From Candidatus Nomurabacteria bacterium (GTDB lineage Bacteria; Patescibacteriota; Minisyncoccia; Phycocordibacterales; UBA9973), in assembly GCA_020851595.1 (NCBI GenBank), contig JADZCK010000051.1:1-36804 (forward strand): a stretch of 36,804 nucleotides of DNA. The letters run 5' to 3'. The notes beneath the pieces were generated by a model, which worked only from the letters and a program-made list of their open reading frames with translations, did no database searches and was not told where the DNA came from. The position numbers and the translations under genes were made by a program. Positions 5,351 through 36,529 of the stretch are shown here, piece by piece (position 1 is the stretch's first letter; the number at the start of each line of letters is the position of its first letter).

Positions 5351-5352
5351 AT

Positions 5353-5386
5353 TTGTGATTATATACCAGAACGACTATAATTACAA
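5353..5386. promoter_or_regulatory. overlapping divergent promoters of serS and dprA
   Basis: The 39-bp gap between serS and dprA holds two facing sigma70-type promoters. Plus strand (dprA): TTGTGA 5353-5358, 17-bp spacer, TATAAT 5376-5381, ATG 8 nt later. Minus strand (serS): TTGTAA 5386-5381, 17-bp spacer, TATAAT 5363-5358, ATG 7 nt later. Each -10 abuts or overlaps the other promoter's -35, so the two cannot be occupied together. Both imply transcripts starting at or next to the start codon. Confidence 0.75.
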
Positions 5387-5389
5387 AAC

Positions 5390-8548: not shown

Positions 8549-8557
8549 TGCTATAAT
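8549..8557 (+). promoter_or_regulatory. extended -10 promoter of relA/spoT homologue
   Basis: TGCTATAAT, a perfect extended -10, ends exactly 6 nt before the ATG at 8564. Transcription would begin at about the start codon, so a leaderless message is expected. No good -35 is visible at 17 bp, as is usual for extended -10 promoters. Confidence 0.7.
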
Positions 8558-8563
8558 CATTTT

Positions 8564-10033
8564 ATGCCGAATGTTAAACAAATAATTGACCTTATTGAAG
8601 GCGGAGTGGATAAAAAAGAAGAGGAACTTTTAACAAAAGCTTATAATTTTGCCGAAAAAGCGCACGAGGGACAGAAAAGGCTATCCGGAGAACCGTATTT
8701 CTACCATGTTTTTGAAACTGCAAAGAATCTAGCTAAACTCGGTATGGATACTCAGACGATAGCTGCCGGACTGATGCATGATGTCTTGGAAGATACCGCC
8801 ACCCCAGAAGAAGAAATGCGAAAAGAATTCGGCGATGATATTTTATTTTTAGTAAAAGGGGTAACTAAACTCGGAACTTTGAAATATCGCGGACACGAGA
8901 GACACGTAGAATCTTTACGCAAATTTTTCGTCGCTATGGCAAATGACCTGCGTGTGGTTATTATTAAATTTGCAGACAGGCTACACAATTTAAGAACTTT
9001 AGAATTTGTACGTGAAGACAAAAGACGCAGAATCGCTTTAGAATCTCTCGAAGTTTATGCTCCCCTTGCAAACCGACTCAGTATGGGAAAACTCAAAGGT
9101 GAAATAGAAGATGCTGCTTTTCCTTATGTTTATCCAAAAGAATATAAAGAGATAGAGGACATAATAAAAGAGAAAAAAGAACTTTATGAAAAATATTTAA
9201 ATGAAGTAAGAGAAGAATTAAAAAAACAACTTAAGAAAAATAAAATAAAAGTTGTAGAAATAAATTACAGAATTAAACACAAATATTCTCTATACAAGAA
9301 ACTTTTAAAACACGATATGGATATAGAAAAGATATACGATATCGTAGCTTTGCGCGTAGTCGTAGATACAGTGGAAGATTGTTATCGAGTTTTGGGACTC
9401 GTACACGGCATATGGAATCCATTACCGGGAAAGATCAAGGATTATATCGCTGTCCCTAAACCAAACGGATATCGATCTTTGCACACCACAATATTTACAG
9501 GATTAGGAGGTATTGCAGAAATACAGATTAGAACCAAAGAAATGCATGCGGAAGCGGCTTATGGAGTCGCTGCGCACTTTGCTTACAAAGAACAAGGTGA
9601 GAAGAAATTAAAGGATGATAAAAGTAAATTTAAATGGATCGAAGAATTAAAAGATTTAAATTATTCTCCCGATGATCCAAAAAAATTTATAGATCACTTA
9701 AAAACTGATTTCTTTAATGATCGTATTTTTATTTTTACACCCAAAGGAGACGTCATCGATATGCCAGAAGATTCTACTCCGCTTGATTTCGCTTATGCGA
9801 TACATTCTGATATAGGTGACCATACAGCAGGCGCTAAAATAAATGGCAAAATGATGCAGATATTTTCTAAACTGAAAAACGGAGATATTGTAGAGATAAT
9901 AACTAACAAGAATTCAAATCCATCAAATAAATGGCTCGAATATGCAAAAACAGCTCTTGCGAAAAAACACATAAAAGCATATTTAGAAAAACACAGCTTA
10001 TTGTCCAAGCTTAAATCATTTGGTAGATCCTAA
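8564..10033 (+). CDS. RelA/SpoT homologue, (p)ppGpp synthetase/hydrolase
   Basis: Makes and probably degrades the alarmone (p)ppGpp, 489 aa. The HD hydrolase domain occupies ~20-180 with intact ligands: H48 (YFYH), H72-D73 and E76-D77 in MHDVLEDT, and FADRLHNLRT. The synthetase domain at ~225-350 has YDIVALRVVVD and KDYIAVPKPNGYRSLHTTIF. The TGS domain follows (IFIFTPKGDVIDMPEDSTPLDFAYAIH). The protein ends ~40 residues after TGS and so lacks the helical, zinc-finger and ACT regions of full-length Rel (~730 aa) that sense ribosomes. Regulation may therefore be simplified. The stop lies 3 bp from the convergent parB stop. Confidence 0.95.
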   Translation: MPNVKQIIDLIEGGVDKKEEELLTKAYNFAEKAHEGQKRLSGEPYFYHVFETAKNLAKLGMDTQTIAAGLMHDVLEDTATPEEEMRKEFGDDILFLVKGVTKLGTLKYRGHERHVESLRKFFVAMANDLRVVIIKFADRLHNLRTLEFVREDKRRRIALESLEVYAPLANRLSMGKLKGEIEDAAFPYVYPKEYKEIEDIIKEKKELYEKYLNEVREELKKQLKKNKIKVVEINYRIKHKYSLYKKLLKHDMDIEKIYDIVALRVVVDTVEDCYRVLGLVHGIWNPLPGKIKDYIAVPKPNGYRSLHTTIFTGLGGIAEIQIRTKEMHAEAAYGVAAHFAYKEQGEKKLKDDKSKFKWIEELKDLNYSPDDPKKFIDHLKTDFFNDRIFIFTPKGDVIDMPEDSTPLDFAYAIHSDIGDHTAGAKINGKMMQIFSKLKNGDIVEIITNKNSNPSNKWLEYAKTALAKKHIKAYLEKHSLLSKLKSFGRS

Positions 10034-11029: not shown

Positions 11030-11038
11030 ATTTTAGCA
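11030..11038 (-). promoter_or_regulatory. extended -10 promoter of parB
   Basis: Minus-strand TGCTAAAAT ends 6 nt before the parB ATG, the spacing that puts the transcription start on the start codon. It lies about 25 bp from the divergent tRNA-Leu promoter. Confidence 0.65.
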
Positions 11039-11224: not shown

Positions 11225-11252
11225 TTGCATTATCTCATATATGAGATATACT
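11225..11252 (+). promoter_or_regulatory. murA-fusion promoter with 16-bp palindromic operator
   Basis: TTGCAT (11225-11230) and TATACT (11247-11252) are separated by 16 bp. A perfect palindrome ATCTCATATATGAGAT spans 11232-11247, filling the spacer and touching the -10. The ATG at 11260 is 7 nt past the -10, so the transcript is probably leaderless. The palindrome length suits an XRE/Cro-type dimer, and the gene product itself carries an XRE domain, so autorepression is the simplest reading. Confidence 0.65.
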
Positions 11253-11259
11253 TTTAGAC

Positions 11260-12789
11260 ATGAAAAAAACACAAAATAAAAATACGGAAACAGAACAGCA
11301 AAAGATAGGTTATTTTATAAAAGAACTTCGTGAACGGAGAGGAATGACTCAAGAAGAATTTGCTCGCGAACTAGGCACTTCTCAAAGCTCTGTACCAAGA
11401 ATGGAAAAAGGAGAACAAAATTTTACCACTGAACTTTTAGCAAAAATAAGTAATGTATTAGAACACAAAATAGTTTCTATAAAAGATTCTATCGATTTTC
11501 AAGTAAATGGCGGAAAAAAATTAAGTGGAACCATAAAAACAAATTTCTCAAAGAATGGATCTGTCGGGCTTCTTTGCGCTTCCCTTTTAAATAAAGGTAA
11601 AACAACTCTTCACGGCATAGCTCGCATAGAAGAAGTAAATAGAGTAATAGAAATATTGGAAAGTATTGGGGTGGAAGTAAAATGGCTAGACCACAATACC
11701 GTGCAGATAATTCCTCCAAAAGAATTTTCTATGGAAAAGATAAACGTGGAATCCTCTATCAAAACTCGCTCTGTGATAATGCTTATAGGCCCTTTGGCAC
11801 ACATCATGACTTCTTTCTCAATCCCTCATGCTCAAGGCTGCAAACTTGGTAAAAGGACTATCTCGGCTCACACCTACGCGCTTGAAGATTTAGGAATAAA
11901 AATAAAAACCACGAATTCTAGATACGAAATAAAAGTAAATAAATTAAAAGCTAGCGATATAGTAATGTATGAAGCTGGAGACACTGCTTGTGAAAATATT
12001 TTGACTGCTGTAGCCAAAATACAGGGCACTACGACGATAAGTTTTGCAAGCGCGAATTATATGGTGCAAGAGATATGTTTCTTTCTTGAAAAACTAGGGG
12101 TAAAAATAGAAGGTATTGGCACATCTACTTTGGTAGTACACGGAATTAAAGATATAGATACTGACGTCGAATATTGGAACAGCGAAGATCCGATCGAATC
12201 TATGATGTTTATATCTGCTTGCGTTATCACTGATTCCAAACTCACAATCACCAGATGCCCTATTGATTTCCTTTCTTTGGAGCTTGAAAAATTAAAAAGA
12301 ATGAACTTAAAATATAAAATTCTAAAAAGATATTATTCTTACAATGAGCGCACAAGATTAGTAGATATAGAAATACTGCCAAGCAAGCTAAAAGCGTTAG
12401 AAGATAAAATTCACGCACAACCATACCCAGGGATAAATATGGATAATCTACCCTTTTTTGTGCCAATCGCCATAAAAGCTGCGGGTCAAACTATAATCCA
12501 CGACTGGAGTTATGAAAATAGAGCTATTTATTTTGCAGAATTAAATAGACTGGGCGCAAATATTACCTTGGCTGATCCACACAGAGTATACATCCAAGGA
12601 GGAACGACACTCAAACCAGCTCAGATAGTATGCCCACCAGCTCTTCGCCCATCGATGATTATTCTTGTTTCAATGCTTGGAGCTACCGGAACTTCAATTC
12701 TGCGCAATGTATATATGATCAGTCGTGGATATGAAGAAATCGCTGAAAGACTCAACTCTATCGGCGCTGATATCAAGATTTTAAAATAA
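11260..12789 (+). CDS. murA: XRE-HTH / MurA fusion (UDP-GlcNAc enolpyruvyltransferase)
   Basis: A 509-aa two-part protein. Residues ~15-70 are an XRE/Cro helix-turn-helix (IGYFIKELRERRGMTQEEFARELGTSQSS...VPRMEKGEQNF). Residues ~77-509 align with MurA, which transfers enolpyruvate from PEP to UDP-GlcNAc, the first step of peptidoglycan synthesis. Key residues are kept: K98-N99 (SKNGSV), R170, catalytic C194 in GCKLGKR, D395 in NMDN, R463 in LRPS and R489 in SRGYE. The EPSP-synthase fold is therefore probably active. A palindrome sits in its own promoter. miaA follows with no gap. Alternatively it could be a regulator that uses the MurA fold as a UDP-sugar sensor. Confidence 0.92.
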   Translation: MKKTQNKNTETEQQKIGYFIKELRERRGMTQEEFARELGTSQSSVPRMEKGEQNFTTELLAKISNVLEHKIVSIKDSIDFQVNGGKKLSGTIKTNFSKNGSVGLLCASLLNKGKTTLHGIARIEEVNRVIEILESIGVEVKWLDHNTVQIIPPKEFSMEKINVESSIKTRSVIMLIGPLAHIMTSFSIPHAQGCKLGKRTISAHTYALEDLGIKIKTTNSRYEIKVNKLKASDIVMYEAGDTACENILTAVAKIQGTTTISFASANYMVQEICFFLEKLGVKIEGIGTSTLVVHGIKDIDTDVEYWNSEDPIESMMFISACVITDSKLTITRCPIDFLSLELEKLKRMNLKYKILKRYYSYNERTRLVDIEILPSKLKALEDKIHAQPYPGINMDNLPFFVPIAIKAAGQTIIHDWSYENRAIYFAELNRLGANITLADPHRVYIQGGTTLKPAQIVCPPALRPSMIILVSMLGATGTSILRNVYMISRGYEEIAERLNSIGADIKILK

Positions 12790-14418: not shown

Positions 14419-14577
14419 TTATTTTTTAACTTCTTTGTGTTTGGTCTGCTTTCGGCACCATTTACAGTACTTTTTAAGCTCGATTTTCTTGGTTACGAGT
14501 TTCTTATTCTTACTGGACCAGTAATTTATACGTTTGCAAGTCCCGCAAGCAAGTTTTATAAGTCTATCTTGTGACAT
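14419..14577 (-). CDS. rpmG: 50S ribosomal protein L33
   Basis: A 52-aa protein below the ORF-track cutoff: MSQDRLIKLACGTCKRINYW, then KNKKLVTKKIELKKYCKWCRKQTKHKEVKK. Two CxxC pairs (C11/C14 and C38/C41) are the zinc ligands of the zinc-binding form of L33. It belongs to the large ribosomal subunit near the E site. The start is supported by TTGCTT-17 bp-TAGTAT whose -10 ends 6 nt before the ATG. Confidence 0.95.
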   Translation of the reverse strand: MSQDRLIKLACGTCKRINYWSSKNKKLVTKKIELKKYCKWCRKQTKHKEVKK

Positions 14578-14583
14578 GTTTCT

Positions 14584-14612
14584 ATACTAATATAAAAGTA
14601 ATCTAAAAGCAA
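14584..14612 (-). promoter_or_regulatory. rpmG promoter, leaderless type
   Basis: Minus-strand TTGCTT (14612-14607), 17-bp spacer, TAGTAT (14589-14584), then 6 nt to the ATG. Confidence 0.65.
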
Positions 14613-16736: not shown

Positions 16737-16745
16737 AGTATATCA
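16737..16745 (-). promoter_or_regulatory. extended -10 promoter of ddl
   Basis: Minus-strand TGATATACT, with 6 nt between the end of TATACT and the ddl ATG. Confidence 0.65.
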
Positions 16746-18448: not shown

Positions 18449-18457
18449 ATTGTAACA
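18449..18457 (-). promoter_or_regulatory. extended -10 promoter of frr
   Basis: Minus-strand TGTTACAAT ends 6 nt before the frr ATG; it lies in the short gap downstream of the holB-like gene. Confidence 0.65.
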
Positions 18458-20237: not shown

Positions 20238-20263
20238 AATATAGCATATTTTTATGCTAGAAT
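20238..20263. promoter_or_regulatory. back-to-back extended -10 promoters of mreB and priA-like gene
   Basis: Minus-strand TGCTATATT (20246-20238) serves mreB, with 6 nt to its ATG. Plus-strand TGCTAGAAT (20255-20263) serves the priA-like gene. The two form an inverted repeat TAGCATA-tttt-TATGCTA (20242-20259). The priA-like message would have a ~30-nt leader with a purine-rich SD (AAAGGAAAAGG), whereas mreB would be leaderless. Confidence 0.65.
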
Positions 20264-24759: not shown

Positions 24760-24788
24760 AGTATCAACTTCGCTCGTAAAATAGTCAA
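24760..24788 (-). promoter_or_regulatory. rsmI promoter, leaderless type
   Basis: Minus-strand TTGACT (24788-24783), 17-bp spacer, GATACT (24765-24760), then 6 nt to the ATG. It begins directly after the terminator of the upstream orphan gene. Confidence 0.75.
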
Positions 24789-32246: not shown

Positions 32247-32648
32247 TTACCTATCTGGAATATGAGCGCCAGGACGCTTCTTCCAGATTTGAAACAAACT
32301 AAGCCAAAAAAACCAAACACCTAGATTAGCTAGGTGAGCAAAATCGTAGGTGGTATCATAAATTCCTGTATACGAAAAGACAAGCCAGCAGGTTACAAAT
32401 AAAGAAAGGACAATTCCATGAATCATCTGGTTCTTTGGCACCATGAAGGTCAAAAACCACACCCAGAAAAACTGCACCACATAAGCTAGCATCCCTAGGT
32501 ACGCCGTCAATAATGACGACTTGAAGGGAAAAGGTACACCTAAAAGACTCGTCAACTCAATCATAAACATAATAATCAAGAAGACAGAGATGGTGATAGA
32601 AGCACCCCACGCACTAGTGATATCTACAAAATTTTGGTTTTCGTTCAT
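32247..32648 (-). CDS. orphan four-helix membrane protein
   Basis: 133 aa, not recognised. Four hydrophobic helices are visible: ~16-35 (TISVFLIIMFMIELTSLLG), ~45-70 (TAYLGMLAYVVQFFWVWFL), ~75-97 (HGIVLSLFVTCWLVFSYTG) and ~108-122 (GVWFFWLSLFQIW). The tail is short and basic. Aromatic residues, especially Trp, are common. A consensus promoter (TTGACA-17-TATTCT) and a very strong SD (AAAGGAGGG) suggest high expression. GC is somewhat above the neighbours. No transporter or enzyme motif is seen. Confidence 0.8.
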   Translation of the reverse strand: MNENQNFVDITSAWGASITISVFLIIMFMIELTSLLGVPFPFKSSLLTAYLGMLAYVVQFFWVWFLTFMVPKNQMIHGIVLSLFVTCWLVFSYTGIYDTTYDFAHLANLGVWFFWLSLFQIWKKRPGAHIPDR

Positions 32649-32763: not shown

Positions 32764-33078
32764 TTAGTATTCTCGGCGTCCTCCGCCATTGTATCCACCT
32801 CGGTCTCCACCTGTTCTTGGTGGGCGAGCTTCCATAGGGCGAGCTTCGTTGACAGTAAGCTTACGTCCTTCAAATTCTTGATCATTGAACATAGAGATAG
32901 CCTTTGCAGCCTCATCAGCTGATGACATTTCTACGAATCCAAAACCTTTTGAACGACCGGACATTTTGTCCATGATAATCACAGCAGAAACAACGTTTCC
33001 AGCTTGTGCGAAGAGCTCTTTAAGAGCATCCTCTTGAGTGCTGTAAGGGAGTCCCCCTACATATAGCTTTGTAGCCAT
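32764..33078 (-). CDS. RRM RNA-binding protein, glycine-rich tail
   Basis: 104 aa. One RRM domain at ~1-80 with RNP2 KLYVGGLPY and RNP1 SKGFGFVEM. The C-terminal ~22 residues are an RG/GG-rich tail (RTGGDRGGYNGGGRREY). The family (cyanobacterial Rbp-like) binds U-rich RNA and is often cold-induced; which RNAs it binds here is unknown. It has a ~84-nt structured leader and its own terminator. Autoregulation through the leader is plausible. Confidence 0.95.
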   Translation of the reverse strand: MATKLYVGGLPYSTQEDALKELFAQAGNVVSAVIIMDKMSGRSKGFGFVEMSSADEAAKAISMFNDQEFEGRKLTVNEARPMEARPPRTGGDRGGYNGGGRREY

Positions 33079-36501: not shown

Positions 36502-36529
36502 AGTATATATAAAAATTATAAAAAAGCAA
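36502..36529 (-). promoter_or_regulatory. rplY promoter, leaderless type
   Basis: Minus-strand TTGCTT (36529-36524), 16-bp spacer, TATACT (36507-36502), 6 nt to the ATG. Confidence 0.7.

Follow-up and report, generated by a model that had tools for sequence, protein, structure and literature searches.

The window analysed here, a stretch of 36,804 nucleotides, comes from a Nomurabacteria-like member of the Candidate Phyla Radiation (CPR; Patescibacteria), with a source genome of 725,713 bases in 57 contigs and an estimated contamination of 3.11%. On its plus strand lies a relA/spoT family gene (8564-10033; NCBIfam TIGR00691, 609 bits) that we predict to be transcribed without a leader. A TATAAT hexamer at 8552-8557, extended by an upstream TGn, ends exactly 6 nt before the ATG at 8564. 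The initial annotation had singled out this gene as the clearest example of a recurring layout, in which a TATAAT-like box stands about 6 nt ahead of the start codon, and had named 12 genes in all. Each of the 12 has its box, and in nine of them the number of nucleotides between box end and ATG (d) is 6. Besides relA/spoT, these nine include four minus-strand genes with extended boxes, namely parB (TAAAAT, 11030-11035; match to the ParB family profile TIGR00180), ddl (TATACT, 16737-16742; D-Ala-D-Ala ligase profile match), frr (TACAAT, 18449-18454; TIGR00496) and mreB (TATATT, 20238-20243; supported by a profile match). Also on the minus strand are the boxes of rplY, encoding bL25 (TATACT, 36502-36507; TIGR00731), and of the putative dnaX (TAGAAT, 2095-2100), together with weak boxes matching TATAAT at four of six positions before rsmI (GATACT, 24760-24765; TIGR00096) and before the putative rpmG (TAGTAT, 14584-14589; ORF 14419-14577). 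The names dnaX and rpmG are those of the initial annotation.

The remaining three genes have the slightly wider spacing of 7-8 nt that had been described for them: murA (TATACT, 11247-11252, plus strand; d=7; UDP-GlcNAc carboxyvinyltransferase profile match), serS (TATAAT, 5358-5363, minus strand; d=7; TIGR00414) and dprA (TATAAT, 5376-5381, plus strand; d=8; TIGR00732). serS and dprA are divergent. Both -10 boxes lie in the 39-bp gap between them (5351-5389), which is too short for two promoters that neither overlap nor extend into the genes. The murA reading frame (11260-12789) carries a helix-turn-helix-like N-terminal region ahead of its UDP-GlcNAc carboxyvinyltransferase part. The statement that several boxes are extended -10 elements is borne out at five of the 12 genes (relA/spoT, parB, ddl, frr and mreB), and the upstream sequences of the named genes are free of SD motifs, as had been noted. 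A -35 element at 16-17 bp had also been proposed; gene by gene it is weak, with only rsmI reaching a five-of-six match (TTGACT, 17 bp upstream) and the others three or four of six, but it emerges when sites are pooled.

Does this layout extend beyond the window? We took the window and 20 further stretches of the same genome, 191,678 bases in total, assigned starts by a mechanical rule, taking the first ATG at the 5' end of every ORF that reached 100 aa, and defined a box as a TATAAT-like hexamer of the pattern TA...T with at least five of six matches. The histogram of box-to-start distances, which the initial annotation had put forward as a check, peaks at d=6-7 and rises above shuffled sequence. 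A box stands at d=6 in 21 and at d=7 in 10 of 155 genes, with about 0-5 genes at other distances. Boxes at d=6-7 precede 31 of 150 genes, compared with a mean of 3.8 and a maximum of 9 in 300 shuffles (z 14.3). The peak is absent from internal in-frame ATGs, of which 783 yielded four boxes at d=6 and seven at d=7. Moreover, when a weight matrix built solely from other genomes of the genus was applied to ours, its best match (score of at least 5) fell at d=6 for 17 genes, at d=7 for 10 and at any other single distance for three or fewer. The hallmark of TA-led genes, a -10-like signal preceding start codons by about 10 bp, exceeds background here, and the box-to-start observation is confirmed genome-wide.

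The boxes have the anatomy of sigma-70-type promoters, with a TATAAT-like -10 carrying TGn and a preferred -35 at 17 bp. Across the genus, 74 of 136 sites have an upstream TG separated from the hexamer by a single base; when the TG is sought at shifted positions, 2-7 sites have it. Hexamers resembling a -35 element (at least four of six matches) peak at a spacer of 17 (24 of 136 sites), and TTG is found at spacer 17 in 16 sites, at spacer 16 in 11 and at the remaining spacers in 0-8. TATAAT is the top upstream 6-mer of the genus (87 occurrences vs 11.4). Gene context was counted over our genome, G004, G010 and four more stretches of the genus, summed, leaving out genes at stretch edges. A strict five-of-six box at d=5-9 precedes 54 of 101 genes with an upstream gap of 15-59 nt, 49 of 136 divergent genes and 38 of 168 genes with gaps of at least 60 nt; where the gap is below 15 nt, the count drops to 29 of 198. 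The box thus marks genes at which a transcript can start, as opposed to those packed tightly within operons. Because it is scarce at the shortest gaps, most operon-internal genes must start in another way. In our genome the box is also rare at same-strand genes with gaps of at least 60 nt (2 of 40 genes in one count, 4 of 39 in another), and therefore some genes may have leaders. The earlier suggestion that leaderless initiation is a main mode in this organism consequently holds for the first genes of transcription units and fails for most genes inside operons.

Among relatives, the boxes of relA and mreB are kept while the sequences flanking them have diverged. In 19 of 23 same-genus loci the relA box lies at d=6-7; in two of the exceptions it lies at d=9 (L186) and d=11 (L184), and two others (L187 and L191) have none nearby. 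For mreB the count is 21 of 23, with one locus at d=8 (L221) and one lacking a box (L214). The signal is weaker in the order outside the genus, where a box precedes relA in 2 of 7 loci and mreB in 2 of 7 loci, and 23 of 232 genes have a box at d=6-7. Leaderless mRNAs are the best reading of these boxes. Taken together, the peak in distance, the TGn extension, the preferred 17-bp spacing of the -35, the conservation and the restriction to transcript-starting genes argue that transcription begins with the A of the AUG, in agreement with the initial proposal that +1 is the start codon; the 5' ends themselves are predicted from promoter geometry.

Could the boxes be something other than promoters of leaderless genes? 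Bacteroidetes leaders carry an A/U-rich, Kozak-like element, and a TA-rich box might likewise act as a translation signal within a longer leader, with no promoter involved. Upstream regions in our genome are generally A/U-rich, and even genes that lack a box show enrichment of A at -6/-5 and of T at -1. A translation signal of this kind would not, however, account for a hexamer-specific pattern joined to TGn at over half of the genus sites and to a -35 preference at 17 bp, nor for the concentration of boxes at genes that start transcripts and their scarcity in packed operons, and we regard it as very unlikely. Real promoters could also give rise to short leaders if translation began further downstream than we have called it, a concern raised by our mechanical choice of the 5'-most ATG. 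That is less probable still, as relA and mreB align at Met1 with no offset in most members of the genus, and internal ATGs show no peak. Leaderless transcription of first genes therefore stays our preferred reading.

Most bacteria find their start codons through the anti-SD, which is among the most conserved of bacterial sequences. A search of our genome returned a single 16S match. Its helix 45 is intact, with both stem and GGAA loop (GGGTAGC-GGAA-GCTGCTC), but the sequence that follows is TGGAATAATTCAATTTG in place of TGGATCACCTCCTT. This is the configuration of organisms lacking an anti-SD, a recognisable helix 45 followed by a tail without CCUCCU. The CCUCC that defines canonical SD-led organisms is absent, and the anti-SD sequence is not retained as it is in bacteria of the Bacteroidetes type. 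The same holds throughout the order. Among 25 genomes with a 16S match, ours included, 22 had readable tails and none of the 22 contained CCTCC; with two further sets of eight and seven genomes, CCTCC is absent from 37 of 37 genomes with a readable tail, drawn from many families. The tail sequence is common to nearly all of the genus, with L035 differing.

Loss of the anti-SD is widespread in the class and rare outside it. From 285 genomes of the class, 162 matched the tail pattern. Among the 147 of these that were listed, 51 have CCTCC, 19 have CTCC, 12 keep only TCC-type remnants and 65 keep nothing, a graded series from CTCC down to no remnant. CCTCC is thus missing from 96 of the 147 listed genomes, and in 48 of 63 families none of the listed members has it. 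In a sample of 286 genomes of the phylum, 158 matched the pattern. A strict canonical tail is present in 115 of them, and 26 more have CCTCC with the three preceding bases altered. An initial figure of 43 genomes without an anti-SD was discarded once the tails were read, since 26 of the 43 keep CCTCC. The remaining 17 of 158 lack the anti-SD, 13 of them in the class of our genome; outside the class the count is only 4 of 142 genomes.

SD motifs show no enrichment in the other genomes of the genus. Strict SD 5-mers, counted 4-16 nt before starts and compared with background, precede 29 of 320 genes in controls that keep the anti-SD (background 3.0), where the top upstream 5-mer is AGGAG and the top 6-mer AAGGAG. 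Within the genus, no SD k-mer is among the top upstream k-mers, and the strict counts are 2 in G004 (background 3.5), 0 in G010 (2.0) and 0 in four other genomes pooled (1.0). Our genome has 4 in 159 genes vs 0.5 expected, and other families of the order have 15 in 232 vs 2.5. The residual cases stand mostly before short uncharacterised ORFs, and at least two are look-alike ORFs apparently inside rRNA.

The strict motifs of our own genome stand before short proteins, one in the window (32247-32648, minus strand) and others at L008:3683-3959, L010:524-869 and L014 (minus strand). A Pfam search of three of them, all but the one in L010, gave no match over cut-off. They could possibly be recent transfers, or their motifs could serve another use. 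A gene for a small RRM RNA-binding protein, found in two genomes of the genus (window 32764-33078, minus strand; also L255), has an upstream region containing GGAGA, and a genuine leader, perhaps autoregulatory, may exist here. In the same class, L110 (genome G129) has a degraded anti-SD tail, TGGATCACTTCTTATC, and eight SD-like matches among 15 genes, several of them before uncharacterised genes.

Two further explanations concern the ribosome. The leaderless layout might be of no ribosomal consequence, with SD-like initiation continuing through pairing to the different 16S tail. Strong conservation of the tail within the genus would fit such a role, as would the SD-like motifs kept at a few genes. 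However, upstream of genes without a box there is no excess of 6-mers able to pair with the tail: they occur at 34 of 470 such genes, compared with 26-37 in shifted windows and a mean of 54.8 for shuffled tails. We therefore discarded the idea that the new tail serves as a new anti-SD, and consider such pairing extremely unlikely. Alternatively, the tail itself might be an artefact of mis-assembly, contamination, an intron before the tail or a second, undetected rRNA operon that has CCUCC. Our assembly is fragmented and has some estimated contamination, and one member of the order, G225, does have an extra copy of the 16S with a canonical tail on another contig, which we take to be contamination. 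We rate this as the least probable of the four alternatives, since independent genomes from many families of the order agree without exception, one and the same tail is found in nearly all of the genus, L035 being different, and same-genus genomes likewise lack SD motifs; the search of our own genome also found just one 16S. Nor was CACCTCC or ACCTCCT found within 2 kb downstream of the 16S in 18 of 19 loci, and an intron displacing the anti-SD was discarded on this ground; the sole displaced match, in L098, is isolated and lies 1308 nt downstream. The second, canonical-type tails that we encountered (G225:C6:263 and G379:C118:3602, one of them E. coli-like) are probably on contaminant contigs. 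A 16S that has truly lost its anti-SD remains the reading that we favor.

The site of the lost anti-SD carries an inverted repeat, TTCAA-T-TTGAA (L001:3030-3063 and other tails of the order). Other families of the order have altered, paired versions of it (TTCCA...TGGAA), and relatives that keep the anti-SD have CTCC...GGAG at the same spot. Tested sequence by sequence, the repeat does not exceed what shuffles give (mean fraction 0.48). It is possibly a pre-16S processing hairpin that has been retained with a new sequence.

Era, bS21 and bS1 were also surveyed. Era binds the GAUCACCUCC tail and is reported absent from most CPR in the available text of a review (PMC10582724). An Era profile search of 21 genomes gave no match over cut-off, and the weaker matches were confined to the first 173 of the 270 positions of the profile. 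The part of the review available to us makes no mention of a lost tail sequence in CPR (PMC10582724). The bS21 profile gave weak, below-cut-off matches in 19 of 41 genomes. For bS1, an S1-domain protein was present in 13 of 13 genomes but below the rpsA cut-off, a threshold that just 2 of 14 controls passed.

How might these changes fit together? The absence of an anti-SD from the 16S, which the initial annotation had not noted, removes the usual alternative, SD-led initiation. We propose the following sequence. A -10 hexamer ending 6-7 nt upstream, often extended, would direct the polymerase to start at the A of the start codon, and the first genes of transcription units would be transcribed as leaderless mRNAs. 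With the anti-SD lost from the 16S tail, canonical SD pairing could not recruit the 30S subunit. First genes would instead be read by leaderless initiation, presumably by the 5'-AUG route known from other bacteria, and closely packed downstream genes by termination-reinitiation or coupling. Leaderless first genes and coupled downstream genes would together make SD pairing dispensable. Loss of Era may then have lifted another constraint on the tail, allowing it to erode, and the anti-SD would have eroded repeatedly in the class and completely in the order.

The timing of these events is suggested by relatives elsewhere in the phylum. Controls that keep CCUCC also show a leaderless peak, at 32 of 285 genes (z 13.3), and hence the leaderless layout looks older than the loss of the anti-SD. 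A rise in the leaderless rate with anti-SD loss is unsupported, given this figure in the controls and the weaker signal in the rest of the order. Leaderless initiation, we infer, probably came before the anti-SD was lost and made it dispensable. We consider it highly likely that housekeeping promoters in this organism produce leaderless first genes, that its anti-SD is lost, and that the layout is the older of the two, the anti-SD having eroded afterwards. The broader proposition is likely, though we hold it less firmly: that the order gave up SD recognition and most sampled members of the class are losing or have lost it, with an older, phylum-wide leaderless layout and coupled operon genes taking its place, while a pre-16S 3' hairpin may have been kept with a new sequence at the old anti-SD site.

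Neither leaderless genes nor loss of the anti-SD is new in itself. Actinobacteria and Deinococcus-Thermus retain a canonical anti-SD and rely on SD at many of their genes; our organism, by contrast, has lost the anti-SD, and its same-genus relatives show no enrichment of SD. Bacteroidetes resemble our organism in that many of their genes are translated with little recourse to SD. Their initiation is SD-independent, their anti-SD is mostly kept but hidden by ribosomal proteins, and their promoters use other hexamers, whereas our organism lacks the anti-SD sequence as such and has TATAAT promoters. The available text of Zheng et al. 2011 (PMC3160421) describes leaderless 'TA-led' genes as widespread in genomes of Actinobacteria and Deinococcus-Thermus, with a TA-like signal that, as in our organism, precedes the start codon by about 10 bp. 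Bacteria without an anti-SD, among them Chryseobacterium, Elizabethkingia, Riemerella, Blattabacterium, Mycoplasma and Carsonella, were described by Amin et al. 2018 (PMC6107228), whose accessible sections count 128 taxids without the motif (Bacteroidetes, Tenericutes and others) vs more than 20,000 with it. Our genomes share with those taxa a tail without CCUCC and a general absence of matching SD motifs. They differ in that the loss covers most listed genomes of one class, that leaderless promoters offer a visible alternative, and that no CPR member is named in those sections. Our literature search, which covered few subscription papers or preprints, found no published account of Nomurabacteria, Parcubacteria or Patescibacteria that describes either leaderless initiation or the loss of the anti-SD. 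Within the reach of that search, it is new to see the two combined across an entire order and the greater part of a class.

A clade without the anti-SD, standing beside sisters with kept or half-eroded versions, offers a test of how start recognition changes. The order in which leaderless promoters, SD decay, Era loss and anti-SD decay arose is testable, as is what ribosomes do without an anti-SD. There are practical consequences as well. Gene finders that expect an SD may mis-call starts in these genomes, and SD-based expression constructs should fail in these bacteria. Finally, the distance from -10 box to start codon is usable for calling starts and transcription units in uncultured CPR.
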